DNA of 35,539 nt from a virus, in the IMG/VR virus record IMGVR_UViG_3300009008_000128, positions 1 through 35,539 of that record; one strand, given 5' to 3'. This document shows positions 18,880-35,539 of the stretch, in pieces. The number at the start of each line of letters is the position of its first letter. The stretch's first letter is position 1. The notes beneath the pieces were generated by a model, which did no database searches, was not told the DNA's origin, and worked only from the letters and a program-made list of their open reading frames with translations. The translations under genes and the position numbers were made by a program.

Positions 18880-19032
18880 ACGAATAATAAGGAGTTGCAC
18901 CTTATAACCTCAATCCTGTCTCCAGACTCGATACAATGTTAGTGTTTCTCACACTAATCGGGGAATTGAACCACCGAGGATTGTTTCCACAAATATGCAG
19001 AAGGCTAGCACTTAGCTTATTCATTGCTTTAT
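18880..19032 (-). ncRNA. Multi-hairpin structured RNA upstream of the methyltransferase gene
   Basis: 153 nt without an ORF, richer in G+C than its surroundings. Minus-strand helices: GCTA/TAGC (19004-19016), TTGT-GGAA-ACAA with a GNRA loop (18981-18992), a T-arm-like hairpin with TTCAATT loop (18959-18976), a perfect 7-bp TTAGTGT/ACACTAA (18939-18957), GTCT/AGAC (18918-18927) and ATAAGG/CCTTAT (18887-18905) beside the start codon. A 7-bp long-range pair CAATCCT/AGGATTG (18977-18983 with 18911-18917) closes the three middle hairpins into a multibranch domain. It is not a normal tRNA: no anticodon arm or matching 5' acceptor strand. Could be a cis-regulator or a processed ncRNA. Confidence 0.65.
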
Positions 19033-19446: not shown

Positions 19447-19477
19447 AAAATTTTTTGCTTATTTATTAATTAATAAT

Positions 19478-19487
19478 ATTATAACAC
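19478..19487 (-). promoter_or_regulatory. Extended -10 promoter (TGTTATAAT)
   Basis: Minus strand TATAAT at 19478-19483 preceded by TGT, overlapping the stop codon of the upstream glycosyltransferase. No good -35; the extended -10 would compensate. The same TGTTATAATATT string occurs at 33288. Confidence 0.45.
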
Positions 19488-23044: not shown

Positions 23045-23615
23045 TTACTCTCGCTAATAAAGGATCGTCATCTCCGACTTTTGATAATCCATATTCTTTT
23101 TCTAAATGTTTTATAACAAATCCTTTTTCCAAAAGTTTTGTTGTGAACTTTTCTAAATCAATTAATCTTCTTTCGTGGGTATCATCAGGTTTTTCTCCTC
23201 CTATTACTCTAAACTCTAGCATTAATGTTGCTTTTTGGTCTTTGGCGAAATCTAAAAGTTTATCTTCTATTTCTTCTGAAACTGCATGGATGAACCAGCG
23301 GGCATAGATGTAATCGAAAGGATACTCTTCAGCTTCCCCAGAAGCAACAAAATATTCAAAAGTGCTTTTGCAGTGGTCAATTTTATCTGTTTCTAAATCA
23401 TTATTATTTGGTTCTATTGCGACTATATCAAATCTGTCCTTAGCAAATAAGGATGTATCTCTGCCGTCTCCTGCACCAATTTCCAAAAATTTTAATACTT
23501 CAAATGGTTGGTCGTGGTTTTCTTTATAAATTTCTGTAGCACAAAACTTGGCAAAATCACTCGGTTCAGCAATCTCTTTATTTTTATAAAACTCTTTCCA
23601 ATATTTTTCATTCAT
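23025..23615 (-). CDS. SAM-dependent methyltransferase, class I
   Basis: 196 residues. Motif I FLEIGAGDGRDTSLFA (about 43-58), acidic motif II VAIEPNN, and PFDYIYARWFIHAVSEE as motif IV region; LMLEFRVIGGEKPDD follows. The family acts on small molecules or sugars. The position among sugar genes suggests a sugar O- or N-methyltransferase. Overlaps the LicD-like gene by 20 nt. Confidence 0.82.
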   Translation of the reverse strand: MNEKYWKEFYKNKEIAEPSDFAKFCATEIYKENHDQPFEVLKFLEIGAGDGRDTSLFAKDRFDIVAIEPNNNDLETDKIDHCKSTFEYFVASGEAEEYPFDYIYARWFIHAVSEEIEDKLLDFAKDQKATLMLEFRVIGGEKPDDTHERRLIDLEKFTTKLLEKGFVIKHLEKEYGLSKVGDDDPLLARVIAEYND

Positions 23616-23616
23616 A

Positions 23617-23783
23617 TTATTTTCTCCAAGTTACTTTATTAATAATGTTGCTTATTGAAGTATGGTAAACATTAAACTTAAAGGAAGCCCACTTTTCTGT
23701 TTCATAGCTGTCCATTCCCAACAACCAGTAATTTTATTCTTATATATCTTTTCTAAGAACCTTTTTTTAATTCCATTTTGCAT
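23617..23783 (-). pseudogene. Remnant of an HNH endonuclease gene (frameshifted, truncated)
   Basis: Frame 1 from ATG 23783 to TAA 23652 gives 43 aa: KKRFLEKIYKNKITGCWEWT, then AMKQKSG, the N-terminal block of many phage HNH enzymes (F..KI...GCWEWT). After KSG frame 1 loses sense, but a second frame (ATG 23715 to TAA 23617) gives KWASFKFNVYHTSIS, which matches the expected next block (GY..F..NG..Y). A single-base shift near 23685 would join them. The HNH catalytic part is missing. Overlaps the end of the SQD1-like gene. Confidence 0.55.
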
Positions 23784-24888
23784 GATCTTTAGGCATTAAA
23801 GCTGTTACTACAATATTATCTTTATTTTCTTCAAAAACTTTTATCAGGTTAGGTAGTTCATCTTCAAATTTGATTGGTTTTAAACCAAGATTATCTAGTG
23901 TTGTGGTATCAAAAGTGAATGTATTACTTTCTTTTTCTACCCTAGGATTATCTATATAAGAAATCTCACAACCAGTTTTTTCTTGTATCTTTTTAGCAAT
24001 ATCATTTATATTAAGTGATTCTGTTGTTTGGTGAATAACTCTAAATTCTCCATCTTTAGCCGGATTATTAATCAATAGTTCAATAGCTTCTAAAGAGTTC
24101 TGTAAACAAATAAATCCTCTGACCTGTCCACCAGTTCCATAAACTGTTAAAGGAACTCCTGTGATAGCTTGTGCAACAAATCTATGAATAATCGTTCCAA
24201 AAAAATAATCAGCATCAAGTCTTGTTCCATTCCTGTGAGAATAAACAATTCCTTGGTTTATGTCGGTTATGGTTAGACCCCAAATTCTATTAGCATAATC
24301 TAGCATGTAACTTTCACTAAATTTAGTGAAATGATACCAAGAACCGAAATAGCGAGGTGTTGGGATTTCCCACCTTTCTAAACAAGCATTATTATGTTTA
24401 TCTTTTTTACCAGTAAATACCTCCATTCTTGATCCCTCTGGGATATGTTTACCATCCCAAATATCAGAAGAATATTCACCTTCTGTTCCAAGTTTAATTA
24501 AATGAGCTTTAGGGCAAATTTCTTTCATTGCATAAATAACATTCATAGTTCCTTGCATATTATTTCTCATTGTTTCGGAAGCATGCACTTGATTCATCAT
24601 AGAAAAAGGAGCTGATGGTTGTTCTGCTAAATGAACAATAACATCAGGTTTAAAATCAAACATTAGAGTTTTCAACCCTAAATAATTTTTTGAAATATCC
24701 ATCTTTATAAATTTCTTTTCATGCAATGTTTCATCAATTTCAACTATTGACTTAGAACCTATACTTTTTACATTTTCGTTTCTTAAATTATTATCAATAC
24801 CAAAAACATCACAATTTCTTTCTTTTAAATATTTATGCAATGCTCTTCCAATATATCCTTCTGATCCTAGGATTAAAACTTTTTTCAT
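23767..24888 (-). CDS. SQD1-like NAD-dependent sugar enzyme (UDP-sulfoquinovose synthase family)
   Basis: 373 residues, close to the family size. GSEGYIG at 8-14 binds NAD. Family blocks follow in order: VIVHLAEQPSAPFSMMN, NNMQGTMNVIYAMKEI, LIKLGTEGEYS, SWYHFTKFSESY (Y-x3-K catalytic pair), TDINQGIVYSHRNGTRLD, FFGTIIHRFVAQA, PLTVYGTGGQVRGFICL and GEFRVIHQTTESLN. These match SQD1 more closely than plain epimerases. SQD1 converts UDP-glucose and sulfite to UDP-sulfoquinovose. Sulfite use by this homologue is inference. First large gene of the sugar operon. Confidence 0.85.
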   Translation of the reverse strand: MKKVLILGSEGYIGRALHKYLKERNCDVFGIDNNLRNENVKSIGSKSIVEIDETLHEKKFIKMDISKNYLGLKTLMFDFKPDVIVHLAEQPSAPFSMMNQVHASETMRNNMQGTMNVIYAMKEICPKAHLIKLGTEGEYSSDIWDGKHIPEGSRMEVFTGKKDKHNNACLERWEIPTPRYFGSWYHFTKFSESYMLDYANRIWGLTITDINQGIVYSHRNGTRLDADYFFGTIIHRFVAQAITGVPLTVYGTGGQVRGFICLQNSLEAIELLINNPAKDGEFRVIHQTTESLNINDIAKKIQEKTGCEISYIDNPRVEKESNTFTFDTTTLDNLGLKPIKFEDELPNLIKVFEENKDNIVVTALMPKDHAKWN

Positions 24889-24889
24889 A

Positions 24890-25222
24890 TTATAGATTTT
24901 TAATTAAACTTCTTGTTTCTAATATTAATTCTCTTATTTTGTATTTTGGTAAACAAACTTTTGAATTACAAATTTGATTCCCTTCAGTGTAAAACCAATA
25001 AAGATTAACTCCGCTTACCTCCATAACAAAAAATAAAGCCAAAGATCCTGCTGTTTTTATCTGTAGTCCTTCATTTAGAAAAGAACCAATTAAAGTAATT
25101 AAATCTGGCATATCTTTACAGTCTATTGCTTTTATTCCTATTCTGTTTTTATCAGCAATCCAAAACTCTATATCGTGAGATATTAAAATTTCTGTTATTT
25201 TTTTCAAAGTATTATTTTCCAT
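24890..25222 (-). CDS. Unknown 110-aa protein
   Basis: 110 residues, no family recognised. Short alpha/beta composition: an N-terminal helix (LKKITEILISHDIEFWIADKN), a hydrophobic centre (GSLALFFVMEVSGVNLYWFY), CNSKVCLPKYKIRELI and a basic helical end. The centre could be a strand pair or a weak membrane segment. It begins the leftward unit after promoter 25247-25291, with the AAATAAAC start context, and its stop sits 1 nt before the SQD1-like ATG. Confidence 0.65.
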   Translation of the reverse strand: MENNTLKKITEILISHDIEFWIADKNRIGIKAIDCKDMPDLITLIGSFLNEGLQIKTAGSLALFFVMEVSGVNLYWFYTEGNQICNSKVCLPKYKIRELILETRSLIKNL

Positions 25223-25246
25223 GTTTATTTTATTTTTATTGTATAT

Positions 25247-25291
25247 ATTATATCAAATTTTTTAAGAAAGTTACAATTAAATTGTGGATAA
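25247..25291 (-). promoter_or_regulatory. Promoter with TTATCCACA box (sugar operon)
   Basis: Minus strand: TTATCCACA (25283-25291), 8-bp gap, weak -35 GTAACT (25269-25274), 16-bp spacer, -10 TATAAT (25247-25252) preceded by TGA as an extended -10. Same spacing as at 31398-31442. Confidence 0.6.
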
Positions 25292-25292
25292 T

Positions 25293-25355
25293 GTAGTGCA
25301 GGAGTTTATTTATTCTCGCCTCCTGCTCTACGAGTAAATGCTGTCTCACCAGCAT
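25293..25355 (-). ncRNA. Two adjacent hairpins at the left end of the SD-rich island
   Basis: A 12-bp stem with one mismatch (GTAGTGCAGGAG at 25293-25304 with CTCCTGCTCTAC at 25320-25331) and a 6-bp perfect hairpin ATGCTG/CAGCAT (25338-25355). They follow the stop of the 137-aa secreted-protein gene. There is no U tract, so a simple intrinsic terminator is unlikely; they may protect the mRNA 3' end or mark an island boundary. Confidence 0.45.
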
Positions 25356-25359
25356 AAGG

Positions 25360-25773
25360 TCAAATTGAGGATATAGTTAATAATTTAAAAAGGAATTTAA
25401 CAGCATTCTTTTCAGTTTGTTTATCCAGTTCAGTATGAGCATAATGATTTCCTTTTGTTATGGATAAGTTCCATAGTTTTAAATCTTTATCCAGATAACG
25501 ATAACCTTTTAACACAAAGACTCCTTGTGGAGCTGGCTTCATTAAAGCTACAACTACTCTTGGGTATCCTTTGTCAATTCTGTGTAATTCCATCAAAGCT
25601 ACTCCTTGTATCGGAGTTACCTTTTTAGGAATATACTTTACAAATACATCATCTGGAGACAATTCACCATCATAGGTAAATTGTTGCTCTGCTCTTGCGG
25701 CTACTGATATAACTAATATAGCTAATATCATAACTACAACAGCTTGTAAGAACCTAATAAAATAAATCATCAT
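25360..25773 (-). CDS. Secreted or membrane-anchored 137-aa protein, unknown
   Basis: 137 residues. Residues 1-29 are a Sec signal peptide or anchor (FIRFLQAVVVMILAILVISV, then AARA before EQQF). The mature part (about 108 residues) is beta-rich: DVFVKYIPKKVTPIQGVALM, YPRVVVALMKPAPQGVFVLKGY. No known family. Its SD is AGGAGGTGA right before ATGATG, overlapping the stop of the 30-aa gene, so translation is coupled. The frame past the TGA continues for 17 codons without homology. Last gene of the island. Confidence 0.7.
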   Translation of the reverse strand: MMIYFIRFLQAVVVMILAILVISVAARAEQQFTYDGELSPDDVFVKYIPKKVTPIQGVALMELHRIDKGYPRVVVALMKPAPQGVFVLKGYRYLDKDLKLWNLSITKGNHYAHTELDKQTEKNAVKFLFKLLTISSI

Positions 25774-25783
25774 AACTCACCTC

Positions 25784-25876
25784 CTATGAAAAAAGTATTA
25801 TTAAATCGGCAATTACTCCTAATCCATAAAAGAAAAGGAATATTGCAACAATAACCCAACCTTTTTTACTTAACAT
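25784..25876 (-). CDS. 30-aa single-span membrane peptide
   Basis: 30 residues, MLSKKGWVIVAIFLFFYGLGV then IADLIILFS. A Lys-rich start and one membrane helix. SD AGGAGG sits inside the last codons of the upstream 33-aa gene, and its own stop (TAG) is inside the next SD. The layout is that of a compact translationally coupled set. Function unknown. Confidence 0.6.
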   Translation of the reverse strand: MLSKKGWVIVAIFLFFYGLGVIADLIILFS

Positions 25877-25877
25877 A

Positions 25878-25979
25878 TTAACCTCCTGTAAATCTTGTAA
25901 TTATAATACCTATTATAATTAGGGGTATAGCCACTATAATCATTATTATAAGCACTCCATCTTGCCACCATTTTTTCAT
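25878..25979 (-). CDS. 33-aa single-span membrane peptide
   Basis: 33 residues, MKKWWQDGVLIIMIIVAIPL then IIIGIIITRFTGG. One membrane helix behind an aromatic, basic start. Strong SD (TAGGAGGTTAAAATG). The stop TAA is 1 nt before the next ATG. It is the first gene after the attenuator-like structure at 26065-26102. Confidence 0.6.
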   Translation of the reverse strand: MKKWWQDGVLIIMIIVAIPLIIIGIIITRFTGG

Positions 25980-26064
25980 TTTAACCTCCTATTAAAGAAC
26001 TGAAGTTTAAAGACTTTTCGGTCTATATATCTATATGTTTTATTTAATTAGTAATTTTAGTATT

Positions 26065-26102
26065 AAAAAAGGTAGCTTTATACTCTGCTACCAAGAGTAT
26101 AA
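26065..26102 (-). terminator. Intrinsic terminator with competing upstream hairpin (possible attenuator)
   Basis: Minus-strand RNA: terminator stem GGTAGC/GCTACC (26071-26092) followed by six U. An earlier 9-bp hairpin TTATACTCT/AGAGTATAA (26078-26102) holds GGTAGC in its 7-nt loop, so the two folds exclude each other. Geometry (one nucleotide between stems) argues against a pseudoknot. Lies between the 63-aa gene and the membrane/secreted genes. Confidence 0.65.
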
Positions 26103-26106
26103 GAGG

Positions 26107-26298
26107 TTAATCATTCTGGCTTCTCCTTATGTCATCTATACATCTAGTTATTGAATCAATAAGTCGTCCAAGCTTTATCCTATCTTTAGAGAATTTTTTA
26201 TGTTTCTCTTTAAGAAGTTTAGCTTCTGCTCTTTTTAGGCGGAGAATACGGTTAATGTCGTTAGCAGATTGCTGTGAGTTTTTGTAAACTTTAAACAT
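26107..26298 (-). CDS. 63-aa basic helical protein
   Basis: 63 residues from ATG 26298, chosen because AAAGGAGG lies 5-6 nt upstream; a longer frame reaches 26367 without an SD. The sequence (MFKVYKNSQQSANDINRI to IDSITRCIDDIRRSQND) is Lys/Arg-rich and helical with a coiled-coil look. Could bind nucleic acid. Function unknown. Confidence 0.6.
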   Translation of the reverse strand: MFKVYKNSQQSANDINRILRLKRAEAKLLKEKHKKFSKDRIKLGRLIDSITRCIDDIRRSQND

Positions 26299-26309
26299 TT
26301 CTACCTCCT

Positions 26310-26552
26310 TTAATAAATCTCCTTTCCATTTAATGCTTGTTCTACCCACTCCCAATTTCCTTTCCAAAAATGATTGACAAGATATTCAATTATCTCATCA
26401 GGTGTTTTGTTTGAAAATAAAGTGTGATAGTGTTCGTGAGTTTTTCTTTTAATGATAGCTATGTTTTGCAGACTGTCGTTTCCACCTCTTGATGAGGGAA
26501 TAATATGGTGTCTGCTGTTGACCCTCCTTTTTCTTAACTTTCCGGATTTCAC
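26310..26552 (-). CDS. HNH-like small protein
   Basis: 80 residues from GTG 26552, selected by AAAGGGGGT 8 nt upstream. The core RHHIIPSSRGGNDSLQNIAI followed by KTHEHYHTLFSNKTPDEIIEYLVNHFW resembles small HNH-type proteins (HHI.P.SRGG...N......H...H). The second zinc/metal ligands are partly unlike classical HNH enzymes. It overlaps the upstream 92-aa frame by 104 nt in a different frame, a long overlap for real genes. Confidence 0.6.
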   Translation of the reverse strand: MKSGKLRKRRVNSRHHIIPSSRGGNDSLQNIAIIKRKTHEHYHTLFSNKTPDEIIEYLVNHFWKGNWEWVEQALNGKEIY

Positions 26553-26727
26553 TTTCCACACCCCCTTTCAAATAAAACATATCCTTGAGTGTGTCTATGG
26601 TTCTTATCATTACTTTTGGATTTAATTTTACACCAAGTTGATCTGCTGTAAACTCACAGATAGCCAACAATGTCGGCAACGAAGCTCCCCTAAGTAATAC
26701 TGCTCCTTTATCAGTTATTCTGTTCAA
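26449..26727 (-). CDS. 92-aa protein, unknown
   Basis: 92 residues from TTG 26727, supported by AAAGGAGGT 5 nt upstream; an upstream ATG at 26751 lacks an SD. Sequence begins MNRITDKGAVLLRGASLPTL and has a helical middle (LLAICEFTADQLGVKL) and a very basic end. No family recognised. Overlaps the Zn-ribbon gene upstream by a few bases and the HNH-like gene downstream. Confidence 0.55.
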   Translation of the reverse strand: MNRITDKGAVLLRGASLPTLLAICEFTADQLGVKLNPKVMIRTIDTLKDMFYLKGGVESEIRKVKKKEGQQQTPYYSLIKRWKRQSAKHSYH

Positions 26728-26866
26728 TTTTACCTCCTTTGAAAATGCCAAAGTTTTTTAGCTTATCTTCTTCTTTTTTAAAACATTCTTTGCATATACC
26801 GTGAGAGATACCTTTGCCTTTCTTTTTACCTAATAACTTTAGGCAATAAGCACATATTACTTGCAT
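26711..26866 (-). CDS. 51-aa zinc-ribbon-like protein
   Basis: 51 residues from ATG 26866 with AAAGGAGG just upstream. Two CxxC pairs, CAYC (about 5-8) and CKEC (about 27-30), separated by a Lys/Gly-rich loop, form a small zinc ribbon. Such proteins in phages often modulate RNA polymerase or other complexes, but no family is assigned. Confidence 0.65.
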   Translation of the reverse strand: MQVICAYCLKLLGKKKGKGISHGICKECFKKEEDKLKNFGIFKGGKIEQNN

Positions 26867-26867
26867 T

Positions 26868-26987
26868 TTAACCTCCTTTAAAAAATGAGTATATACTGAC
26901 AATATCGGATATTATGCCAATAAACATATAACCGAAAAACATAAAAAATACGATAGTAAAGATTATTTTACCTGTTAGACTAAACAT
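26868..26987 (-). CDS. 39-aa membrane peptide, first gene of the island
   Basis: 39 residues, MFSLTGKIIFTIVFFMFFGYMF then IGIISDIVSIYSFFKGG, one long membrane span. SD TAGGAGGTTAAAATG. Its last codons (AAA GGA GGT TAA) are also the SD of the next gene, a coupling repeated along the island. Preceded by two TTGTTTACAA repeats. Confidence 0.6.
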   Translation of the reverse strand: MFSLTGKIIFTIVFFMFFGYMFIGIISDIVSIYSFFKGG

Positions 26988-27001
26988 TTTAACCTCCTAT
27001 T

Positions 27002-27047
27002 TTGTAAACAACTTGTCAACCACTTGGTTTTCAATTGTAAACAACTT
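27002..27047 (-). promoter_or_regulatory. Pair of operator-like repeats upstream of the island
   Basis: AAGTTGTTTACAA occurs twice on the minus strand (27002-27014 and 27035-27047), 33 bp apart (three helical turns). Each contains the dyad TTGT-TT-ACAA. A TTGACA also lies between them (27014-27020 region). No convincing -10 was found, so the promoter itself is not placed. Confidence 0.5.
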
Positions 27048-27085
27048 TTTAAAAGAACATAGTTTATTGTCGTTTCAGACATATT

Positions 27086-27259
27086 TTATTTATCTTCTAA
27101 TTCTTTAATCGCCTCATCTATATCTATATAATTGTTTTGTTTTTTATTCATTTTATAATGATCTGTTATTGCTGTAAGTAACAAAATAGCTGAAAGATAT
27201 TCTTTTTCTTCAATCTTTCTTATAGCTCTTTTTATTATATTAAAATCTTTATCTTTCAT
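27086..27259 (-). CDS. 57-aa protein, unknown
   Basis: 57 residues, MKDKDFNIIKRAIRKIEEKE to DEAIKELEDK; acidic and helical. Starts inside the end of the 68-aa gene (ATGAAAGATAA overlap of 11 nt), so coupled. No family recognised; the A-rich start context is of the non-SD type. Confidence 0.55.
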   Translation of the reverse strand: MKDKDFNIIKRAIRKIEEKEYLSAILLLTAITDHYKMNKKQNNYIDIDEAIKELEDK

Positions 27260-27455
27260 AATGTTTATTTAATTCTTCAAACTTATAAAAATCACATTCC
27301 TTTGATGGTATGAAATCTCTTTCAAAGTCTGCATCTTTTCCATCTCTTCTAAAACCATAGCCATAGATACGACGACCAAAATAATTATCAATACAAAACG
27401 CTTTCTGCATCTTTCCTGTTTTTGGATTTTTTAATTTTTTTATGTAACTGCTCAT
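27249..27455 (-). CDS. 68-aa protein, unknown
   Basis: 68 residues, MSSYIKKLKNPKTGKMQKAF then CIDNYFGRRIYGYGFRRDGKD. Basic N-terminal half and acidic C-terminal half with many aromatic residues. No known domain. It is in the small-gene run of the early region, downstream of the promoter at 28109-28154. Confidence 0.55.
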   Translation of the reverse strand: MSSYIKKLKNPKTGKMQKAFCIDNYFGRRIYGYGFRRDGKDADFERDFIPSKECDFYKFEELNKHYER

Positions 27456-27517
27456 AACTATTTACTATAAATCACTTAATCTTGTTCTATTTATTCTGTC
27501 TATCAAGTAGCTTTTCA

Positions 27518-27718
27518 TTATTTTAATTCTATAAACTTAATTTGTGTTGCAAGTTTAAGATTATCTTCATTTAAGTCTATTACTAAATCTCCGTCATTTA
27601 TTTCATCATTTTCAATCATTCTGTTTATTTCATCTTGATCTTTAATTAATTGAAACTTTTGTGCTTCACTAAAACAGACAATTTTATTAAAATTAGTTAA
27701 TATTGATTGTTTGCTCAT
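27518..27718 (-). CDS. 66-aa acidic protein, unknown
   Basis: 66 residues, MSKQSILTNFNKIVCFSEAQ then a D/E/N-rich region (DQDEINRMIENDEINDGDLV) and a beta-like end (ATQIKFIELK). Acidic small early proteins can be DNA mimics, but nothing specific supports this. Its start overlaps the 42-aa gene. Confidence 0.55.
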   Translation of the reverse strand: MSKQSILTNFNKIVCFSEAQKFQLIKDQDEINRMIENDEINDGDLVIDLNEDNLKLATQIKFIELK

Positions 27719-27821
27719 GATCTTTGTAATTATCTGAATTTATCTTCATCTTGAAAATATCATATGTTATAAATAAAGATGCTAATAAAAAGGTAATTAA
27801 AATTAATTTAAAAAAACTCAT
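27693..27821 (-). CDS. 42-aa single-span membrane peptide
   Basis: 42 residues, MSFFKLILITFLLASLFITYD then IFKMKINSDNYKDHEQTININ. One N-terminal membrane helix and a polar tail outside or inside. Start overlaps the stop of the 49-aa gene (ATGA). Function unknown. Confidence 0.5.
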   Translation of the reverse strand: MSFFKLILITFLLASLFITYDIFKMKINSDNYKDHEQTININ

Positions 27822-27967
27822 ATAAATAATGTTATTAAATATAAAACGATTACAACTATTCCCAAAAAAATGAATTGTTTTTTTAATCTCTTTTTTTCTT
27901 TTCTTTCTTCTAAATATTCTTTAACAACTGATTTATATATACCATCCCCTAACTCTAATTCAAACAT
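27818..27967 (-). CDS. 49-aa membrane protein with basic stalk
   Basis: 49 residues. A polar, highly charged first half (FELELGDGIYKSVVKEYLEE, RKEKKRLKKQ) and a C-terminal membrane helix (FIFLGIVVIVLYLITLFI), i.e. a tail-anchored layout. First gene after the long leader RNA at 27968-28102. Function unknown. Confidence 0.55.
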   Translation of the reverse strand: MFELELGDGIYKSVVKEYLEERKEKKRLKKQFIFLGIVVIVLYLITLFI

Positions 27968-27999
27968 AATATTTTTATTTATTTATAATCTTATTCGCT

Positions 28000-28071
28000 A
28001 CCTTACCAAATATCCGTTGTTTTATTGAGTGGTCGTATCCTCATAAAAACTATCGTAATATTTCGTAAGGT
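28000..28071 (-). ncRNA. Large leader hairpin RNA
   Basis: Inside the about 135-nt untranslated leader from the promoter at 28109. A 14-bp stem with a single G-G mismatch (ACCTTACGAAATAT with ATATTTGGTAAGGT) encloses a second helix TTTTAT-GAG/CTC-A-ATAAAA (one bulged A) and a 10-nt apical loop GATACGACCA. Internal loops TACGATAG and CAACGG. Candidate cis-regulatory RNA or early small RNA. Confidence 0.6.
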
Positions 28072-28108
28072 TTTAAATAAGTGTCAATTGTTTATTTTGA
28101 CTATCTTA

Positions 28109-28154
28109 ATAGTAAACTTTCTTGTTCTAGTTGTCAAATTATAACTGTTGATAA
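28109..28154 (-). promoter_or_regulatory. Promoter with TTATCAACA box
   Basis: Minus strand: TTATCAACA (28146-28154), 8-bp gap, -35 TTGACA (28132-28137), 17-bp spacer, -10 TACTAT (28109-28114). It lies right after the HTH gene and drives the small-gene run through the hairpin leader. Confidence 0.75.
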
Positions 28155-28157
28155 CTT

Positions 28158-28415
28158 TTATCTCTTTCTACCTTTTAAATGATTGTTGATGGTTGATACA
28201 TCTCTCCCTATTAATTTAGATATCTCTGTTTGATTAAAACCATCATCAATCATATCTCTAATCAATCTTTTTAGTTTAATTATATTTTCCTTTTTGCGAT
28301 TTTTATTTATTGATAAAGATCTTTTTTTATATTTCTTTACAAATAATTTTTTCAGTTTTATTTTTATCTCGATTTTATTTTTTGGGAAAACTGAATCTTC
28401 TATTTTTTTAATCAT
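28158..28415 (-). CDS. Helix-turn-helix protein
   Basis: 85 residues. Basic first half (many Lys) and a C-terminal HTH: MIDDGFNQTEISKLIGRDVS followed by TINNHLKGRKR, with the recognition-helix pattern I.R..ST...H. Resembles the HTH of small phage regulators or transposase-like domains. It overlaps the upstream gene by 1 nt and is followed by a strong promoter, so a regulator of the early region is a reasonable guess. Confidence 0.65.
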   Translation of the reverse strand: MIKKIEDSVFPKNKIEIKIKLKKLFVKKYKKRSLSINKNRKKENIIKLKRLIRDMIDDGFNQTEISKLIGRDVSTINNHLKGRKR

Positions 28416-28777
28416 TATATTATTTTATCTTTAACGGTTTCAATAAACTTCTCCATTTGTTGTTTATAAAATTCTTCAAAAGTTTTCTGTTTTGAAGTAT
28501 TATTCTTCCAAAATACATATAAAGAATTTCTCAACCTTTGGCTAGGACTCTTATCACTTCTAAATTCTGTTTTTATTTCAGGGATAATTATATCATCAGG
28601 ATTAACATCGACTTCTGAAAATACTGTATGAATATATTTATTCCCCATGTCAAAAATCAAAGCTGTTTCTTTTGCTTTTAATTCTTGTGTCCCTAACTTT
28701 ATTGATAAAGTCCCATCCTTTTTCTTTTGAACTCCATCAATAACAGAATTAAATTGTATAATTTTATTTTTCTTCAT
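28415..28777 (-). CDS. Conserved phage recombination-region protein
   Basis: 120 residues. GVQKKKDGTLSIKLGTQELK, then SPSQRLRNSLYVFWKNN and FEEFYKQQMEKFIETVKDKI. This arrangement (KKDGTLSL...TQEL, SPSQRLR..LY..w, F..FY...Me..I) is widespread in phages, next to RecT/Erf genes, with unknown function. Overlaps the upstream gene by 14 nt. Confidence 0.7.
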   Translation of the reverse strand: MKKNKIIQFNSVIDGVQKKKDGTLSIKLGTQELKAKETALIFDMGNKYIHTVFSEVDVNPDDIIIPEIKTEFRSDKSPSQRLRNSLYVFWKNNTSKQKTFEEFYKQQMEKFIETVKDKII

Positions 28778-29660
28778 TTAATTTATAAACAGATACTAAT
28801 TTATAAAGTTTAAATTCTTGACCTTCTTCACTTATAATTTTAAATTCATCTTTATTTTCTTCGTTATAACCATTATCAGCTAACCACTTTTTATAATTCT
28901 CTTGCTTATTCAATTCTTCTTTTCTAGCATCTTCTTTTTCTTTTTTCTCTTGTTCTACTATTTTAGCAACAACTTTTTTAGCTTCTTCAACTTTTTTATC
29001 AAAATCTTCTTCATTTAATTCATCAATATCTTTTTGAGTAACTCCGTAATCAATACCAGAACCTTGAACTATACCAATATCCTTTAGTCTTTTAAATCTC
29101 TGTGTTCTCTTTTCTTCATTTTTAGCATTATCTATCTCTTCTTGCTTTTTTTCTTCGGCTTCATCTTCCATTTTTTTCTTTCTAATTCTGATATCTCTAT
29201 ATTCTTCAAATTCCTCATTATCCATTTCTAGTAGTTCTTCATCGGTAATTTCTTCTTTATCGCCAATCTTTTTTAATTCATCTTTTCTCCATGGTAAAAT
29301 TTGTTCTCTTTCCTGTTTTATTTTAAGATCTTCGGCTGCTTTCTCGATTGCTTTAAATCTTTCAAATTCAGGCTCTAAAATACCAGTCAATTCTTTTTGC
29401 ATTGACATAATATCTCTATTAATTCCAGTGAATAAATCACGGCAACTCTTTCCAAACTTTTCATTCTCTATCATAATTGAACGAATCTCTTTTTTCTTAT
29501 CTGCTACAATTTTAAGAGAAGCATCATCAGTTAAATCATCACAAACTATTAACTTTGATTCTTCTATAACTTTTTCAAGTTCATCTGGTGTATAAGGAAA
29601 CTTAGCTTTTTCTTGTACTGCTGATTTTAATTCATCAGCATTAATTAAATCTTTTGACAT
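28764..29660 (-). CDS. Coiled-coil protein of the recombination module (DUF1351-like)
   Basis: 298 residues, mostly charged helix (about 110-270 with long E/K runs). The N-terminal part (DDLTDDASLKIVADKKKEIR, IENEKFGKSCRDLFTGIN) resembles the start of DUF1351-type proteins that accompany RecT/exonuclease genes. The last 35 residues form a small beta region (FKIISEEGQEFKLYKLVSV). It has its own promoter at 29692-29736. Confidence 0.6.
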   Translation of the reverse strand: MSKDLINADELKSAVQEKAKFPYTPDELEKVIEESKLIVCDDLTDDASLKIVADKKKEIRSIMIENEKFGKSCRDLFTGINRDIMSMQKELTGILEPEFERFKAIEKAAEDLKIKQEREQILPWRKDELKKIGDKEEITDEELLEMDNEEFEEYRDIRIRKKKMEDEAEEKKQEEIDNAKNEEKRTQRFKRLKDIGIVQGSGIDYGVTQKDIDELNEEDFDKKVEEAKKVVAKIVEQEKKEKEDARKEELNKQENYKKWLADNGYNEENKDEFKIISEEGQEFKLYKLVSVYKLNEEK

Positions 29661-29691
29661 TTGTTTATTTTTTTTAATTAATAATAATTTA

Positions 29692-29736
29692 ATAATATAT
29701 TACTCTTCTTTATTGTCAAACTACGATTGTGGATAA
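29692..29736 (-). promoter_or_regulatory. Promoter with TTATCCACA box
   Basis: Minus strand: TTATCCACA (29728-29736) directly after the TAG of the exonuclease gene, 8-bp gap, -35 TTGACA (29714-29719), 16-bp spacer, -10 TATTAT (29692-29697). Confidence 0.7.
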
Positions 29737-30417
29737 CTAAAAATTGTTAATGAGAAATAACTCACGACATCTAATCCAAAATTCTCTAAATACTAATAAC
29801 TCTTTTTCAGCCTGTTCGATTAATGGCTGTAATTGTTCTCTTGTTACTGTGGTTATTTTTAACTTCAACTTTTCATTAATCATCCTTTCGTCATATTCGC
29901 AAAAATCAAGTTTAAGCAATTTTTCGTTCACAATGAAATAATGAACCACTTGCCATATGTATTGTGCTGGAATCCCGAAAATTGGTTTTGTAGATGAAGT
30001 TATCGCCGACTCTTTATCCGATAAAGTATTTCTTAAAAAACTTGCTACCATATTTTTAGATTTTGGACTTTTAGATTCAAAAGCTTCTGTTAAATCTTCG
30101 GAAAGTCCGTCAGGAGATAATCCCAACCAATCGTGTTCATTGTGCAGACAAAACATTCCTGTGTTAATTTCCTTATCTGTTTGTTTTTCAAATAACTTTA
30201 AAGAATAATCTTCTTCAATGTTTCCTCGTTGCATTGCTTTTGACTTTGGTATCTCGTCCATTTGTTCTGTAGCTTCTTCGCTTATCAGTTCACAGACTAA
30301 GCCAAATTTAGATTTTTGATTTCCCATTACTTGTTTTAATCTCGTTCCGGTAACTACTCCAAGTCTAGCTTTTAACCATTCATCTGTTCCTTGTTTAATT
30401 TCTTTTAAAATCCTCAT
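29737..30417 (-). CDS. YqaJ / lambda-exonuclease-type recombination nuclease
   Basis: 226 residues. Conserved blocks: QGTDEWLKARLGVVTGT at 9-25, RGNIEEDYSLKLFE about 64-77, LGLSPDGL (Asp 103) and EAFESKSPK (E114-x-K116), the D..ExK catalytic core of lambda Exo relatives, then PAQYIWQVVHYF. A 5'-3' exonuclease that makes 3' single-stranded ends for RecT. Located 3 nt after the RecT stop. Confidence 0.92.
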   Translation of the reverse strand: MRILKEIKQGTDEWLKARLGVVTGTRLKQVMGNQKSKFGLVCELISEEATEQMDEIPKSKAMQRGNIEEDYSLKLFEKQTDKEINTGMFCLHNEHDWLGLSPDGLSEDLTEAFESKSPKSKNMVASFLRNTLSDKESAITSSTKPIFGIPAQYIWQVVHYFIVNEKLLKLDFCEYDERMINEKLKLKITTVTREQLQPLIEQAEKELLVFREFWIRCRELFLINNF

Positions 30418-30419
30418 AA

Positions 30420-31367
30420 TTATTTTTTAGGAAAAGGACTTTCAATTTCATCTTCAGGAATTGGTTCGACTTTTGGATCTTCTTTATTTTCTATTACTTT
30501 AGGTTCTTTAAAGTCATTTTTCAAATCATCTTTTAATTCAATTAGTTCTTTATTATTCTGAGCTGACTGTGGGAAACCTTCCCAAACTTTTTTTAGTTCT
30601 TCTTTATCTTTTACTTTTTCTAATTTATCTGAATAGTCATCAATATTAATATCAAATTTAGTTGTATCAATATCTCTTTTTCTTTCTTCAACATTAGAAT
30701 TTTTATTGTCTTCTGCGATAGCTTTATAAATAGTTTCGTTTTTAGGAACAAGTTTTGCAACTTGTTTAAGTACAGTTTTTTTCCACATCCATAATCTTGG
30801 ATCGTTTTCTTCTTTCCAAGGAGAATACTTTGAAGTAAAACTTTTTGAAAATCTTTTGCCCATATCTAGTATTTGTTTTTTTGACATCGCTTCTTTAATC
30901 TTTCCACCGGCTTGCAACTCAACAATTACATAAGCACCAATTGCTTTTCCTCTATCATCATTGAAAGGATCTGCTTTATGTTTAATTTCTCCATTCTCTT
31001 GAGTGAAATCGTCCTTTTCATAAACGATTTCTGCAGTGATTGATTTAGCACCGGCTCTATAAAATAAAGTTACAAGACCTTGATAACCAAGTTGAAACTG
31101 AGCTACTTTATTATAAGGTAAAACATAAGCTTCACCCGAAACTTCTGACGGCATTAGATTTAATTCTGCCATTGTTATAAAAGAATTTATAACTGAAGTT
31201 GGTTCACAATCCAATAAAACAGGATTTCTTTGAACGGAAGAAATAACAGCACTTAAAAATTTCAAAGCTTTTTCCTTTCCCAAATAATTGTTTAATTGGT
31301 TTTGATAATTACTAGCCAAAACGATTTTTAAATCTTTTTCACTATTAAACTTTTTTATTTGATTCAT
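30420..31367 (-). CDS. recT: RecT-family single-strand annealing protein
   Basis: 315 residues. Characteristic RecT blocks: FLSAVISSVQRNPVLLDCEP, SFITMAELNLMPSE, AYVLPYNKVAQFQLGYQGL, ITAEIVYEKDDF, GAYVIVELQAGG, and DPRLWMWKKTVLKQVAKLVP. The last 90 residues are an acidic, poorly conserved tail (ends in PFPKK). Pairs with the exonuclease downstream. The operon starts at the promoter 31398-31442. Confidence 0.93.
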   Translation of the reverse strand: MNQIKKFNSEKDLKIVLASNYQNQLNNYLGKEKALKFLSAVISSVQRNPVLLDCEPTSVINSFITMAELNLMPSEVSGEAYVLPYNKVAQFQLGYQGLVTLFYRAGAKSITAEIVYEKDDFTQENGEIKHKADPFNDDRGKAIGAYVIVELQAGGKIKEAMSKKQILDMGKRFSKSFTSKYSPWKEENDPRLWMWKKTVLKQVAKLVPKNETIYKAIAEDNKNSNVEERKRDIDTTKFDINIDDYSDKLEKVKDKEELKKVWEGFPQSAQNNKELIELKDDLKNDFKEPKVIENKEDPKVEPIPEDEIESPFPKK

Positions 31368-31397
31368 GTTTATTTTTGTTTATTTATTAATAATTTA

Positions 31398-31442
31398 ATT
31401 ATATATTGTTAAAATATGTTGTCAAACTGAAATTGTTGATAA
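31398..31442 (-). promoter_or_regulatory. Promoter with TTATCAACA box (recT operon)
   Basis: Minus strand: TTATCAACA (31434-31442) directly after TAG of the upstream gene, 8-bp gap, -35 TTGACA (31420-31425), 16-bp spacer, perfect -10 TATAAT (31398-31403). Confidence 0.82.
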
Positions 31443-31997
31443 CTATTTATTATTATATTTAGATTGTTGAATATCTGAATTAATTATATTTTCTATTAAA
31501 CCTAAAATATTCTTTTGCATCATATTCTCATTGTTTTTAAAAACTGATTTAAATTTAATTGGATCACAATGTAATCTATTTGGATTATCTTTAAAAAATT
31601 TCTTTTGTATCCCATAAACCCATTCTAAAGTTTTTATAGGAACAGCTGTTTGTGGGTTAAAACCAAACCAAAACAATTTAAAAAATTGAAATCTTCTAGC
31701 TTTTTCTTCTAAAGATAAAGATCTTATTTTTTTTGCATAATCTAAATATTCTTTATTAATTTTATCTAAATGTTTATTTTTTTCAGTATGATTTTGTTCT
31801 GGAATATCTTTCTTAACCATTTTAAAATAAGATTGAAGGACATCTTTTTTTTCTCCCTGCCAATCACCTATTGTTATTAAATCATTTGGAGCTAAATTTT
31901 TTCTTATTATTAAAAAGTTATCAAGGGCTTCAGCAGGGACTTCTGTCCATCCTGCAATACCTTGTAATTTTATAAGACCTATTCTAATTTTACTCAT
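31443..31997 (-). CDS. Unknown 184-aa protein of the replication region
   Basis: 184 residues, no family recognised. Several helical segments, with SLSLEEKARRFQFFKLFWFG and TLEWVYGIQKKFFKDNPNRL in the centre and an Asn/Lys-rich end. It comes just after the O-like gene, the usual place of a helicase loader or primosome partner, but it lacks a Walker A motif, so a DnaC-type loader is not supported. A-rich AAATAAAC start context. Confidence 0.6.
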   Translation of the reverse strand: MSKIRIGLIKLQGIAGWTEVPAEALDNFLIIRKNLAPNDLITIGDWQGEKKDVLQSYFKMVKKDIPEQNHTEKNKHLDKINKEYLDYAKKIRSLSLEEKARRFQFFKLFWFGFNPQTAVPIKTLEWVYGIQKKFFKDNPNRLHCDPIKFKSVFKNNENMMQKNILGLIENIINSDIQQSKYNNK

Positions 31998-31999
31998 GT

Positions 32000-32713
32000 T
32001 TATTTTTTGTTACAGTCAATGACTTTTTGTTTATAATTTTTTTGAATAGAAACTTCATCTTCCCAACCCCAAGCATTTAACCAAGTTGATGGATGTTTCC
32101 ATTCAGGACAAAATTCATTATTTTGTTTTTGTTTATTTTTTTCTTCTTTTTGAATTTTAATTGCATCGACCAAAATTTGCAAGCTTGGGATAACTTTTTC
32201 TTTTTTTAATTTATTCCAAGTTTTTTTAGCTTGACCTTTTCCTTTTTTAAGTGGGTATTCTTTCCAAAAAATATCAAAATCTTTATCGTCTTTATTATTA
32301 TCTTTATCTTTATTATTATACTTATTATTATACTCTAGAGTTACTCTAGAAGAATTATCCTTATTTTTCAACAAATTTAAAATTTCAATAGGTAACTTAG
32401 AAAAATACTCTTTTTCTTTAACTTTTGTAAATCTACCTTTTTTTGCTTCAACAAATTCATCACCATTTAAAATATAATATCCATCAATATAATTAATAAA
32501 TTTTTTTTCAATTAATTGATTTCTACATAAATTTATAAGTTTTACATCATACCCTGTATAAGCAACTAAAAGCTTGTCAGGACATTTAAAAATTTTTGTA
32601 GTATTTCTTTTTGGATTAGTTAATAAAGCCAAATACAACAATCTAGTATCAGAATTTAATTCATCAATTTTTTCATCTTCCCAAATTGTAGTTCTTATTA
32701 ATGCTGTTTCCAT
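32000..32713 (-). CDS. O-like replication initiation protein
   Basis: 237 residues. Winged-helix N-terminus (RTTIWEDEKIDELNSDTRLL), YLALLTNPKRN, LINLCRNQLIEKKFINYIDG. The second half has a low-complexity linker (Asn/Lys/Asp-rich, residues 130-145) and the common C-terminal block FDIFWKEYPLKKGKGQAKKTW and HPSTWLNAWGWEDE of phage replisome organisers. In lambda-like phages the origin lies in the linker-coding region; here 32280-32340 is made of TTATTAT/TTTATC repeats, which could serve that role. An attenuator-like hairpin precedes it. Confidence 0.75.
   Translation of the reverse strand: METALIRTTIWEDEKIDELNSDTRLLYLALLTNPKRNTTKIFKCPDKLLVAYTGYDVKLINLCRNQLIEKKFINYIDGYYILNGDEFVEAKKGRFTKVKEKEYFSKLPIEILNLLKNKDNSSRVTLEYNNKYNNKDKDNNKDDKDFDIFWKEYPLKKGKGQAKKTWNKLKKEKVIPSLQILVDAIKIQKEEKNKQKQNNEFCPEWKHPSTWLNAWGWEDEVSIQKNYKQKVIDCNKK
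32280..32345. repeat. AT-rich repeat tract inside the O-like gene (possible origin)
   Basis: Reiterated TTTATC and TTATTAT units encode the Asn/Lys/Asp linker of the initiator. In lambda and its relatives the iterons lie at this place in the gene. The units here are short, imperfect and could simply reflect low-complexity protein. Confidence 0.35.
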
Positions 32714-32731
32714 GTTTATTTTTTAAAAATT

Positions 32732-32773
32732 AAAAAGAACAGGCAAACACTGAAATGCAAACCTGCTCTTTTT
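32732..32773 (-). terminator. Hairpin with U tract 18 nt before the O-like gene (attenuator candidate)
   Basis: Minus-strand RNA: AAAAAGAGCAGG (from 32773-32762) pairs with CCTGTTCTTTTT (32743-32732), 12 bp with one G-U that is only paired on this strand, then AAUUUUU. The 18-nt loop holds TTTCAGTGTTT, complementary to AAACACTGAAA located upstream in the same RNA (32797-32807). Pairing of the two would compete with the terminator. Confidence 0.55.
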
Positions 32774-32818
32774 AATATTTAAATATAAAGAAATATTTTC
32801 AGTGTTTTTTATTTGCAT
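32745..32818. repeat. Inverted repeat pair overlapping the attenuator loop
   Basis: AAACACTGAAA (32745-32755) is the exact complement of TTTCAGTGTTT (32797-32807). ATGCAAA (32755-32761) is the complement of TTTGCAT (32812-32818). The two modules occur in swapped order, so they cannot form one continuous helix. Confidence 0.6.
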
Positions 32819-32828
32819 ATTTAAAACA

Positions 32829-32873
32829 TATTAAATTAATAATTATAAAAAGTAAAGTGTAAACTGTTGATAA
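32829..32873 (-). promoter_or_regulatory. Weak promoter with TTATCAACA box (replication operon)
   Basis: Minus strand: TTATCAACA (32865-32873), 8-bp gap, -35 TTTACT (32851-32856), 16-17 bp spacer, -10 TTAATA or TAATAT. A second, degenerate box (TAATCAACA) overlaps the stop of the HNH gene. Weak hexamers suggest regulated use. Confidence 0.45.
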
Positions 32874-32882
32874 CCTTGTTGA

Positions 32883-33197
32883 TTACTCGTATAAATGAAT
32901 ATTATTTTGGTAAAAAATTATATCAGATTGTATATAAACATAACCAACTTCTTCTACAAAATCTTTAGTGTAATTTAAGTATTTAAAATGTTCTTCTTGT
33001 GTATGCCTTACTTCATTATGACATTTTTTACAAAGATAAATAGAATTTAAAATCGAATCAGATACTCTACCTAGAATATGATGAATTTCTAACCCACCAC
33101 AATTTTCACCATTACCACCACAATTAGCACATTTATAATTATGATAATCAAACCAAAACCATCTTATATTATCTTTAAATGGAAACTTTAATTTCAT
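32883..33197 (-). CDS. HNH endonuclease
   Basis: 104 residues. CANC (23-26), HHI (39-41), N51, CKKC (56-59) and H60 give the zinc-bound HNH fold (C..C, HH...N...C..C H). The enzyme is short and complete. Many phages keep a free HNH near terminase genes to assist packaging; this one sits before the replication genes, so a homing or replication-linked role is also possible. TATAAT at 33204-33209 lies only 6 bp before the ATG, which suggests a leaderless mRNA. Confidence 0.88.
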   Translation of the reverse strand: MKLKFPFKDNIRWFWFDYHNYKCANCGGNGENCGGLEIHHILGRVSDSILNSIYLCKKCHNEVRHTQEEHFKYLNYTKDFVEEVGYVYIQSDIIFYQNNIHLYE

Positions 33198-33203
33198 ATA
33201 TAT

Positions 33204-33212
33204 ATTATATCA
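33204..33212 (-). promoter_or_regulatory. Extended -10 promoter giving a leaderless HNH transcript
   Basis: Minus strand TGATATAAT with -10 at 33204-33209. The expected start point falls on or next to the A of ATG 33197. No good -35 (it would lie in the terminator loop). Confidence 0.45.
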
Positions 33213-33242
33213 AAAACAAAACACTCCCGAAAGAGTGTTTTG
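33212..33242 (-). terminator. Intrinsic terminator after the lysis genes
   Basis: CAAAACACTC (33217-33226) pairs with GAGTGTTTTG (33233-33242) around CCGAAA. On the minus strand it is followed by T-rich GTTTTTG, closing the late transcript from the lysis genes. Stem is symmetric, so weak function on the other strand is possible. Confidence 0.75.
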
Positions 33243-33254
33243 TGAATCGATTCA
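33243..33254. promoter_or_regulatory. 12-bp perfect palindrome TGAATCGATTCA
   Basis: Located between the extended -10 promoter at 33288 and the terminator, with AAAGAGTGTGAG beside it. A protein-binding site (operator) is plausible; no partner is known. Confidence 0.35.
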
Positions 33255-33287
33255 AAGAGTGTGAGCAATAAACAAACCCACGAAAAT

Positions 33288-33296
33288 ATTATAACA
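33288..33296 (-). promoter_or_regulatory. Extended -10 promoter (TGTTATAAT)
   Basis: Minus strand -10 TATAAT at 33288-33293 with TGT before it, partly matching TTTAAA as -35 16 bp further up inside the holin gene. It fires toward the terminator, palindrome and HNH gene. Confidence 0.45.
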
Positions 33297-33536
33297 CTAT
33301 TTTTCAGATTTTAAAATCTTTGTTTGGTCATAAAGTCCACATGCTGAAAGTCCAATTACTAATCCTGTTATACCAGCTGAAACTGAAAAACCAGAAAGCA
33401 AAAATCCAAAAGCTAAACCTAAAACAATAGATGCTAAAGGTAGATATTTACTAGGTAAATATTGCCCTACAACTGAATTTAAAGCTGTAACTAAAGTTAA
33501 AATACTTCCATCTTGAATTAATTGTGAAATTTCCAT
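33297..33536 (-). CDS. Holin-like membrane protein
   Basis: 79 residues. Two hydrophobic segments, about 33-49 (PLASIVLGLAFGFLLSG) and 52-68 (VSAGITGLVIGLSACGLY), and a short charged C-terminus (KILKSEK). Size, two membrane helices and the position right after the amidase fit a class II holin. Several Gly-rich helix contacts favour membrane clustering. Shares no clear family signature. Confidence 0.7.
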   Translation of the reverse strand: MEISQLIQDGSILTLVTALNSVVGQYLPSKYLPLASIVLGLAFGFLLSGFSVSAGITGLVIGLSACGLYDQTKILKSEK

Positions 33537-33545
33537 TTTATTTTT

Positions 33546-34043
33546 TTAATTAATTGATAATTTTCTTAATAAATTTAATAAAGTTTGTTTAAGATAATTT
33601 AGTTGACTTTCTAAAATTAAATTATTTTGTTTATCTTGCTTTATTAAATCTTTTTTAAAAATACTTTCTACATAATCTTTTGTTAAACAAGGACATATCC
33701 TCTCAGCCTGTAAATCACAATGCCTATATACTTTATCATCATTTCTTATTAAACCTCTCAAAGATTGAATTTGAGCATCTGTGGGCATTTCTACAAGGAA
33801 GTTTCCCTGTAAACAAATTCCTATATATCCTTTATTATAGCCTTTTGTATGCATTCCTTCTTCATTATCTTTTCTGAACTGAACAACATTTCCTTTCGGA
33901 TCTATTGTATATTGATACCCTCCATAAAAACCAAGCTCTGATTTCATATCCCAGAGTTTCTTATGGTATCTATTTATAGACCAAGTTTGATAAAAAACTT
34001 TTTTCCTCGATATAGCACTATGATGTAATATTATTTTTCTCAT
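33546..34043 (-). CDS. N-acetylmuramoyl-L-alanine amidase endolysin (PGRP/amidase_2)
   Basis: 165 residues. IILHHSA (H7/H8), GGYQYTIDPKGNVVQ, GMHTKG (H65), GYIGICLQGNF and RHCDLQAERICPC with H108 and C117 as zinc ligands: the T7-lysozyme-like order. PTDAQIQSLRGLIR is the helix before the second zinc motif. A short Lys/Leu-rich helix (about 125-165) follows and could bind wall or membrane. No signal peptide, so it needs a holin. Cuts the amide bond between MurNAc and the stem peptide. Confidence 0.92.
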   Translation of the reverse strand: MRKIILHHSAISRKKVFYQTWSINRYHKKLWDMKSELGFYGGYQYTIDPKGNVVQFRKDNEEGMHTKGYNKGYIGICLQGNFLVEMPTDAQIQSLRGLIRNDDKVYRHCDLQAERICPCLTKDYVESIFKKDLIKQDKQNNLILESQLNYLKQTLLNLLRKLSIN

Positions 34044-34062
34044 TTTGCTTTTCTATTACATT

Positions 34063-34263
34063 TTATTTTGTCATTAAAATATTTGTATTTTGTTGAACAA
34101 CAACTGACAATTCAGTCATTGCAGAAGACATCCCTATAAAGGCTTCAGTATTTCGATCAATATGATGAGAAGTTATTTTAAAACAAAATATAACCAATAA
34201 TACACATATACCGAATAGACCTCCTTGTTTCATTAATTCCTTTAAAATTTCTGCTTTAATCAT
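34063..34263 (-). CDS. Small holin-like / membrane-anchored lysis protein
   Basis: 66 residues. A membrane helix at about 16-32 (FGICVLLVIFCFKI) followed by a helical soluble part (NTEAFIGMSSAMTELSVVVQ). Single-span proteins of this kind precede amidases in many phages (BhlA-like holins). Together with the 79-aa protein it suggests two membrane components in the lysis cassette. The upstream interrupted gene ends 7 nt inside it. Confidence 0.65.
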   Translation of the reverse strand: MIKAEILKELMKQGGLFGICVLLVIFCFKITSHHIDRNTEAFIGMSSAMTELSVVVQQNTNILMTK

Positions 34264-34486
34264 TTTTATTTTTTAAGTAATTTTTACAATCTTCTAAAGA
34301 ATCAAATTCGACTATATTTTCTTCTTTTATATTTTTATGGATTTGGCTTTCTAAATATCAATATTTTGAATAAAAACTAGAAATATATTTTTCTTGATCT
34401 TCCTTTGCTCCTGTAATATAAACAATAGTAAAGACTATTATTCCTGAAACTATTATTATCCCTACTGTTTTAAATTTATTCATCAT
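34256..34486 (-). pseudogene. Small membrane protein interrupted by an in-frame TGA
   Basis: A 77-codon frame from ATG 34486 (SD AGGAG 6 nt upstream, overlapping the end of the fibre gene) to TAA 34256, broken only by TGA at 34358-34360. Before TGA: MMNKFKTVGIIIVSGIIVFT as membrane helix and IVYITGAKEDQEKYISSFYS KY. After TGA: YLESQIHKNIKEENIVEFDS and LEDCKNYLKNKND. The second part stays in frame and ends at the next gene's start (ATGATTAA). TGA for TGG (Trp) is one base, so a recent nonsense mutation, a sequencing error or read-through are all possible. Layout resembles a one-helix inner-membrane spanin. Confidence 0.6.
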
Positions 34487-34487
34487 A

Positions 34488-35539
34488 TTATTCTCCTACA
34501 TATTCTATATTAAGATTCATATAACTCGGTGTGAAATTGATATCTGCACCATTATCATGTCTTGCTCTTAAATCAACATTTACAGGAGTTGTAGTTGCTC
34601 TCATAAATCCAGTTAAAGAACTACTACCTATATCATTAGCTACTGAGTATTTTCTATGATTATGACATTGGTGTTGTTCTACTCCATTTAAGAATACAGC
34701 ATATTTGAAAGTTACATTATTTGTGCCACTACCCCCATTTATAGAAGCAGAACATCTATAAACACCATCTTTAGTTATAGTTATTTGGTCATTTGCTACA
34801 TCAGGAGTTACATTATTTGAAAGTCCATCATCTGTAAATCCTGTTAATTTAGTATATGTAACTCCAGTAGTTATTGATTGAGCTGTACTTCCGTCTGCTA
34901 AATGAATTTCTCCATATGTTCCATTTTCATAAATTTCACCTTCTACATCTAATAAACCATTCGGAGTTGTCGTCCCTATTCCAATATTCCCATCCCCTAA
35001 AATAGTCATTCTAGGTAAAGATGGGCTTCCAGTGTAGAACAATATATCTCTATCTGCATTTTCTCGTCCTTGAATTATAAAGTGTCCGACTTCTGTAAAT
35101 GGATAAGCTCCACCAGCAGCACTTGTTGTATATAATGAACTAACACCACTAGGTACTGAACTTTGGAAATCTCCATAAATTTTTATACCTGCACCAGAGG
35201 AGCTAGTATCACTAGCAAATATTGTTCCATCTTTTACTTCTAATTTTGTTGTTGGGCTATTTGTTCCAATACCGACGTTGCCATTTTGTTGTATTGTCAA
35301 TTTTCTACCAAAATTATCCCAAGCATCTGCTTGTGTTCCAAAATGTAATTTACCAGCTTCTAATCTCATCTCAAAATTTTCATCTGCACTACCATCTGAT
35401 TCACCAAGTTTTACAGATGCATCTGAACCTACTTTTAATCCTAATTCTTTTATAGCATTCAACATTGTCCAAAAAATTGGATCTGATTCAATAGACAAGA
35501 AACCATCTTTTCCTTCTTGCACAGCTTCAGGAATTACTT
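34488..35539 (-). CDS. Fibre protein C-terminal part: S74-like fragment, NVGIGT shaft, C1q-like tip
   Basis: Open to the right edge; the GTG at 35522 is not a real start, since the frame continues (V-I-P-E-A-V). Residues near the edge (VIPEAVQEGKDGFLSI then FWTMLNAIKELGLKV) are the second half of an S74-type intramolecular chaperone. Unusually they are followed, not preceded, by more fibre: two NVGIGT motifs (near 35270 and 34980) and a final domain of about 125 residues (YTKLTGFTDD, DGVYRCSASI, YMNLNIEYVGE) with a C1q/TNF-like jelly-roll pattern. Probably the 3' part of the gene that starts at 1973. Confidence 0.85.
   Translation of the reverse strand, partial: VIPEAVQEGKDGFLSIESDPIFWTMLNAIKELGLKVGSDASVKLGESDGSADENFEMRLEAGKLHFGTQADAWDNFGRKLTIQQNGNVGIGTNSPTTKLEVKDGTIFASDTSSSGAGIKIYGDFQSSVPSGVSSLYTTSAAGGAYPFTEVGHFIIQGRENADRDILFYTGSPSLPRMTILGDGNIGIGTTTPNGLLDVEGEIYENGTYGEIHLADGSTAQSITTGVTYTKLTGFTDDGLSNNVTPDVANDQITITKDGVYRCSASINGGSGTNNVTFKYAVFLNGVEQHQCHNHRKYSVANDIGSSSLTGFMRATTTPVNVDLRARHDNGADINFTPSYMNLNIEYVGE

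Follow-up and report, generated by a model that had tools for sequence, protein, structure and literature searches.

In other systems, DnaA is well known both to activate and to repress transcription, and the genes that it regulates include nrdA, polA, glpD and fliC of E. coli, sda of B. subtilis, and gcrA, ftsZ and podJ of Caulobacter (PMC8203912, PMC11317965). The promoters analyzed here resemble those cellular ones in having DnaA boxes in their promoter regions. However, the known targets are few genes, studied singly, whereas the layout described below is phased to the -35 hexamer and recurs over a phylum and its phages. The mechanism of DnaA activation has been described as poorly understood (PMC11317965), and we found no helical rule for it in the literature searched. 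Among phages, the λ pR promoter is stimulated by host DnaA (PMC7466680). The present promoters would be like λ pR in that respect if, as their sequences suggest, host DnaA stimulates them. The DnaA boxes of λ pR lie downstream of the start site, whereas the phage studied here has, at several of its promoters, a single box that precedes the -35. Class I and class II activators, such as CRP, use sites that lie on the same face of the helix and about 10 bp apart; protein and site differ in the present case, where the box centre would fall near -49/-50, -59/-60 or -41. In the open-licence papers searched, we found none that connects Patescibacteria with DnaA boxes and promoters or that reports this layout in their phages.

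Boxes and promoters of the window

The window is the whole stretch of DNA analyzed, the 35,539 nucleotides of IMG/VR virus record IMGVR_UViG_3300009008_000128. A preliminary description had pointed to TTATC(C/A)ACA boxes standing exactly 8 bp upstream of four early promoters, to a weaker fifth copy and to a sixth next to its -35. All of these boxes are present, on the minus strand, and three of the promoters have precisely the layout described, with TTGACA as the -35. The box TTATCAACA at 31434–31442 (5′ flank ATAG) directly follows the TAG stop of the gene at 31443–31997 and stands 8 bp from the recT promoter, TTGACA-16-TATAAT (31398–31425, a 12/12 match), whose gene, at 30420–31367, encodes RecT by Pfam. 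The box TTATCCACA at 29728–29736 (flank TTAG), directly past the TAG stop of a YqaJ-family gene (29737–30417), has the same gap to TTGACA-16-TATTAT (29692–29719, 11/12), which is ahead of the gene for a protein of 298 residues without family (28764–29660). The third, TTATCAACA at 28146–28154 (flank AAAG), is 8 bp from TTGACA-17-TACTAT (28109–28137, 10/12), and the next minus-strand ORF is 27518–27718. In a promoter scan of positions 16000–35539, these three rank among the best matches.

At the fourth promoter, the 8-bp claim holds only approximately. The box there, TTATCCACA at 25283–25291 (flank TACA), is ahead of the gene at 24890–25222, and the -10 is indeed TATAAT; but the better -35, TTGTAA, stands 6 bp from the box, with an 18-bp spacer (promoter 25247–25276), and the hexamer at 8 bp, GTAACT, scores 3/6. 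The fifth copy, TTATCAACA at 32865–32873 (flank AAGG), does keep the 8-bp gap, although its promoter, TTTACT-17-TAATAT (32828–32856), is weak; read by eye, it precedes a replication-initiation/DnaD-like gene (32000–32713). The sixth, TTATCCACA at 15761–15769 (flank CTAG), lies directly past the terminase stop codon and abuts the -35 of AAGACA-17-TATAAT (15733–15761), which, again by eye, is ahead of the gene at 15526–15714. Gaps of 0–2 bp form a class in other phages as well. The sole basis for regarding the promoters as probably early is the genes downstream (RecT, the DnaD-like protein and others). Between the terminase side and this early region, at 19479–24888, there are glycosyltransferase-, epimerase- and methyltransferase-like genes, as judged from translations only.

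That several boxes begin directly after a stop codon was also described correctly (31434, 29728 and 15761), and the reason is that the TAG stop provides the AG of the motif. A G is directly 5′ of the box at five of the six window sites, and AG at four. Across 59 phage sites, the wider motif includes this AG, with A at a frequency of 0.81 and G at 0.68.

At 30% GC, the window has many TTGACA/TATAAT-like matches, so that chance together with AT-rich sequence has to be considered. There are nine TTATCMACA words in the window against 1.45 expected. TTATCMACA-N8-TTG occurs three times in the record, and the reversed pattern does not occur. Promoters that score 10/12 or more and have a box at gap 8 number three in the window, while 400 dinucleotide shuffles yielded none. 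The words at 5161, 20573 and 21312 (plus strand) lie within genes, in antisense orientation, and do not count as promoter boxes. The controls, namely shuffles, out-of-phase gaps, reversed patterns and a second phylum (see below), all stayed at background level, and we regard the probability of a chance arrangement as negligible.

The consensus DnaA box, TTATNCACA, is represented by TTATCCACA at three of the six window sites and by TTATCAACA, one base off, at the other three. Such words near a replication-initiation-type gene, and their clustering in some phages (G401), would also be expected of replication-origin or DnaA-titration sites whose proximity to promoters is incidental. The window boxes, however, occur singly, with 1.4 kb or more between them, not as the clustered boxes or iterons of a phage replication origin; they stand at separate promoters with distance and phase to the -35 locked, and titration does not need a fixed spacing. 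An origin or titration role is thus highly improbable.

Phasing in phages and in Patescibacteria

IMG/VR was scanned for a box followed, after any gap of 0–30 bp, by TTGACA-N16-18-TATAAT, and near-duplicates were removed. Among the 68 deduplicated TTATCCACA matches listed, the gap is 8–10 bp in 23, 17–21 bp in 19 and 0–2 bp in seven, with none at 12–14 bp. These listed gaps have a periodicity of about 9–10 bp (R=0.47, p=5e-5 versus uniform gaps), whereas the reversed box shows weak periodicity only (p=0.09). AG is directly 5′ of the box in 42 of the same 68 listed cases. The 37 TTATCAACA cases among the matches listed have gaps less ordered than those of TTATCCACA. The fixed 8 bp of the preliminary description applies within the window phage only, and gaps found elsewhere are of 9 or 10 bp, or longer by one turn. 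For a given phage the gap is mostly constant: 8, 8 and 8 in the window, 11 and 11 in L054, and 8 and 8 in L073. In phage G397, six of seven TTATCCACA are 8–10 bp ahead of TTGACA, and just one of them had led to its selection.

Among RecT relatives (L004–L016), upstream sequence is available for 12 loci, and in 7 of these a box lies within 600 bp of recT, in most cases at a gap other than 8; L012 and L009 have AG-flanked boxes close to recT with gaps of 18–20 bp. No close relatives of the genes at 31443–31997 and 29737–30417 were found in IMG/VR, and the portal matched nothing but a fragment that shares 100% identity with the window. Phage G401 (133 kb; L406, 93–106 kb) presents a more elaborate arrangement, in which several promoters have two direct and one inverted AGTTATCCACA upstream of TTGACA, and the exact AGTTATCCACA word, which occurs 16 times in the record, is confined to 95–105 kb.

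Bacterial chromosomes have the same layout. Among the matches listed from a genome scan with TTATCCACA, those in Patescibacteria have mainly gaps of 5–11 bp (27/43), and those in other taxa are spread out. Across 380 genomes, which take their Patescibacteria label from that of genome G001, there are 99 cases at gaps 8–10 and 10 at gaps 12–14 (binomial p=1.5e-19); with G001 removed, the counts are 62 and 8 (p=2e-11). Reversed-pattern controls in the 380 genomes gave one case in each gap range, and a control set of 130 larger genomes from the phylum of Alkaliphilus gave three at 8–10 and none at 12–14. For TTATCAACA, there was no clear enrichment in Patescibacteria (8 versus 4 control matches in 264 genomes). 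In G001 itself (932 kb), which was selected for containing a match but whose boxes were unselected by position, 29 of 94 TTATCCACA are 8–10 bp ahead of TTGACA (two at gap 8, 22 at 9 and five at 10). A second class of nine boxes has gaps of 18–21, peaking at 19 (five boxes), and the interval between the classes is nearly empty; the reversed-box control has a peak at 6. The gap to the -35 is thus quantised by about 10 bp in phages and in G001, as for upstream activator sites that must be on one face of the helix. Since the phase to the -35 is fixed and is repeated one turn out, it is likely that a protein binds at the box and touches RNA polymerase, which supports the suggestion of the preliminary description.

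The genes behind the chromosomal boxes include dnaA (L412–L414), lexA (L428, L203 and L274), recA (L436 and, by eye, L186), and BRO-domain, ORF6N-domain, Phd/YefM and Gp49-like genes; the layout was also read by eye at nadA-, aspartokinase- and rplJ-like genes. The dnaA promoters of L412–L414 have a box 9 bp ahead of TTGACA and a second box just past the -35 that overlaps the spacer. The second box suggests repression there, the phage promoters having the upstream box alone, and the two-box layout would suit activation at low DnaA and repression at high DnaA. In Magasanikbacteria L397, TTATCAACA is found 3 bp from TTATACACA, near dnaA. Six promoters, of lexA, recA and other genes (L428, L433, L434, L435, L436 and L440), contain a LexA-like GAAC-N4-GT operator between the -35 and the -10, with the DnaA box 8–10 bp upstream of the -35, so that joint control by DnaA and LexA is possible. 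DnaA boxes and LexA operators also occur together in the E. coli uvrB promoter (PMC6015884), although the arrangement of operator between the hexamers and box 8–10 bp upstream sets the six promoters apart. No LexA operators were recognized by eye within the window promoters.

We propose that the box (A)AG-TTATC(C/A)ACA acts as an element of upstream activation for sigma-70-type promoters. It would be occupied by a host DNA-binding protein, DnaA being the most likely one, about a helical turn ahead of the -35, or on the same helix face one turn nearer or farther, and this protein would raise initiation by touching RNA polymerase; the upstream position of the box would favour activation over blocking. 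Patescibacteria would use the layout at scattered promoters, among them those of dnaA, lexA and recA and of toxin-antitoxin and mobile-element genes. The same layout would be used by their phages, the window phage very probably among them, so that a pre-existing host factor would drive recT, replication-type and other early genes at entry. Taken as a whole, we consider this reading reasonably likely. Many natural promoters with quantised spacing would offer a testable geometry of RNA polymerase contact, and they suggest that, in Patescibacteria, replication control and SOS genes are linked with phage takeover.

Candidate proteins for reading the box

Host DnaA, named in the preliminary description as a possible transcription factor here, is still the leading candidate. 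The word is a DnaA box, dnaA promoters carry it, and the DnaA of Patescibacteria retains the box-reading signature GGRDHTTxxH in five of six genomes tested. On these grounds, DnaA is probably the factor that reads the boxes. The tolerance of the site is less easily accommodated. In phages, position-5 variants, TTAT[AGT]CACA, which E. coli DnaA tolerates, are unphased (p=0.27), while position-7 variants, TTATCC[CGT]CA, picked as a negative control, are phased to the -35 (R=0.44); in G001, TTATCCCCA behaves like the consensus box (5/23). A DnaA-like tolerance would leave position 5 free and keep A at position 7, and this is not what was found, the yardstick being the E. coli consensus and not the host's DnaA. 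The phasing of the position-7 variants is evidence against a strict DnaA reading. E. coli DnaA, moreover, mostly binds paired boxes 2–3 bp apart (PMC11317965), unlike the single boxes of the window.

The same activation geometry might be produced by another Patescibacteria transcription factor, or by a specialised part of RNA polymerase, with a site that contains TTATCCACA. The tolerance at position 7 with little at position 5, the extended AG...GnT flanks and the occurrence of the layout, read by eye, at the general nadA-, aspartokinase- and rplJ-like genes all fit such a factor. So does G001, the genome richest in copies, in which dnaA was not found by profile or by tblastn of the 932 kb, in a fragmented assembly. 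However, the core is an exact DnaA box and the dnaA promoter has the same layout in several Patescibacteria, and we know of no alternative factor with a TTATCCACA-type site. We regard a non-DnaA factor as rather unlikely. The broader formulation, in which Patescibacteria and their phages share a phylum-level promoter class with AGTTATCCACA placed about one turn ahead of the -35 and possibly read by a factor other than DnaA, is similarly doubtful; if it were correct, a phylum for which few regulators are known would have an undescribed global activator.

The preliminary description also considered a phage activator, namely the small HTH protein encoded at 28158–28415 (minus strand). The protein is basic, with an HTH_38-like fold by Pfam, its GRDVST resembles the GGRDHTT of DnaA, and its gene ends just ahead of one of the boxes. 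A search of 50,697 phage records found no match to it, however, and bacterial chromosomes bear the same element. An activator role is not supported, and a phage-encoded protein binding the boxes is very unlikely. GRDxST, tried as a DnaA-like motif of box-bearing phages, was rejected, since it occurs in the window HTH protein, an HTH_38 by Pfam, and in no other phage locus examined.

Probable host of the window phage

A search for the host with the window RecT against the 380 Patescibacteria genomes found relatives that are at best 30–37% identical, and therefore no host is assigned from RecT. A Shine-Dalgarno-like motif precedes just two of 40 genes (minus strand, 2254–34263). Few such motifs, taken together with TTGACA/TATAAT promoters, would fit Patescibacteria better than Bacteroidota, and from these sequence features the host is probably a member of the Patescibacteria. 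As a sequence marker, the box layout may help in matching uncultured phages to Patescibacteria hosts. The gene leaders of the window are A/T-rich, and several end in AATAAAC-ATG.
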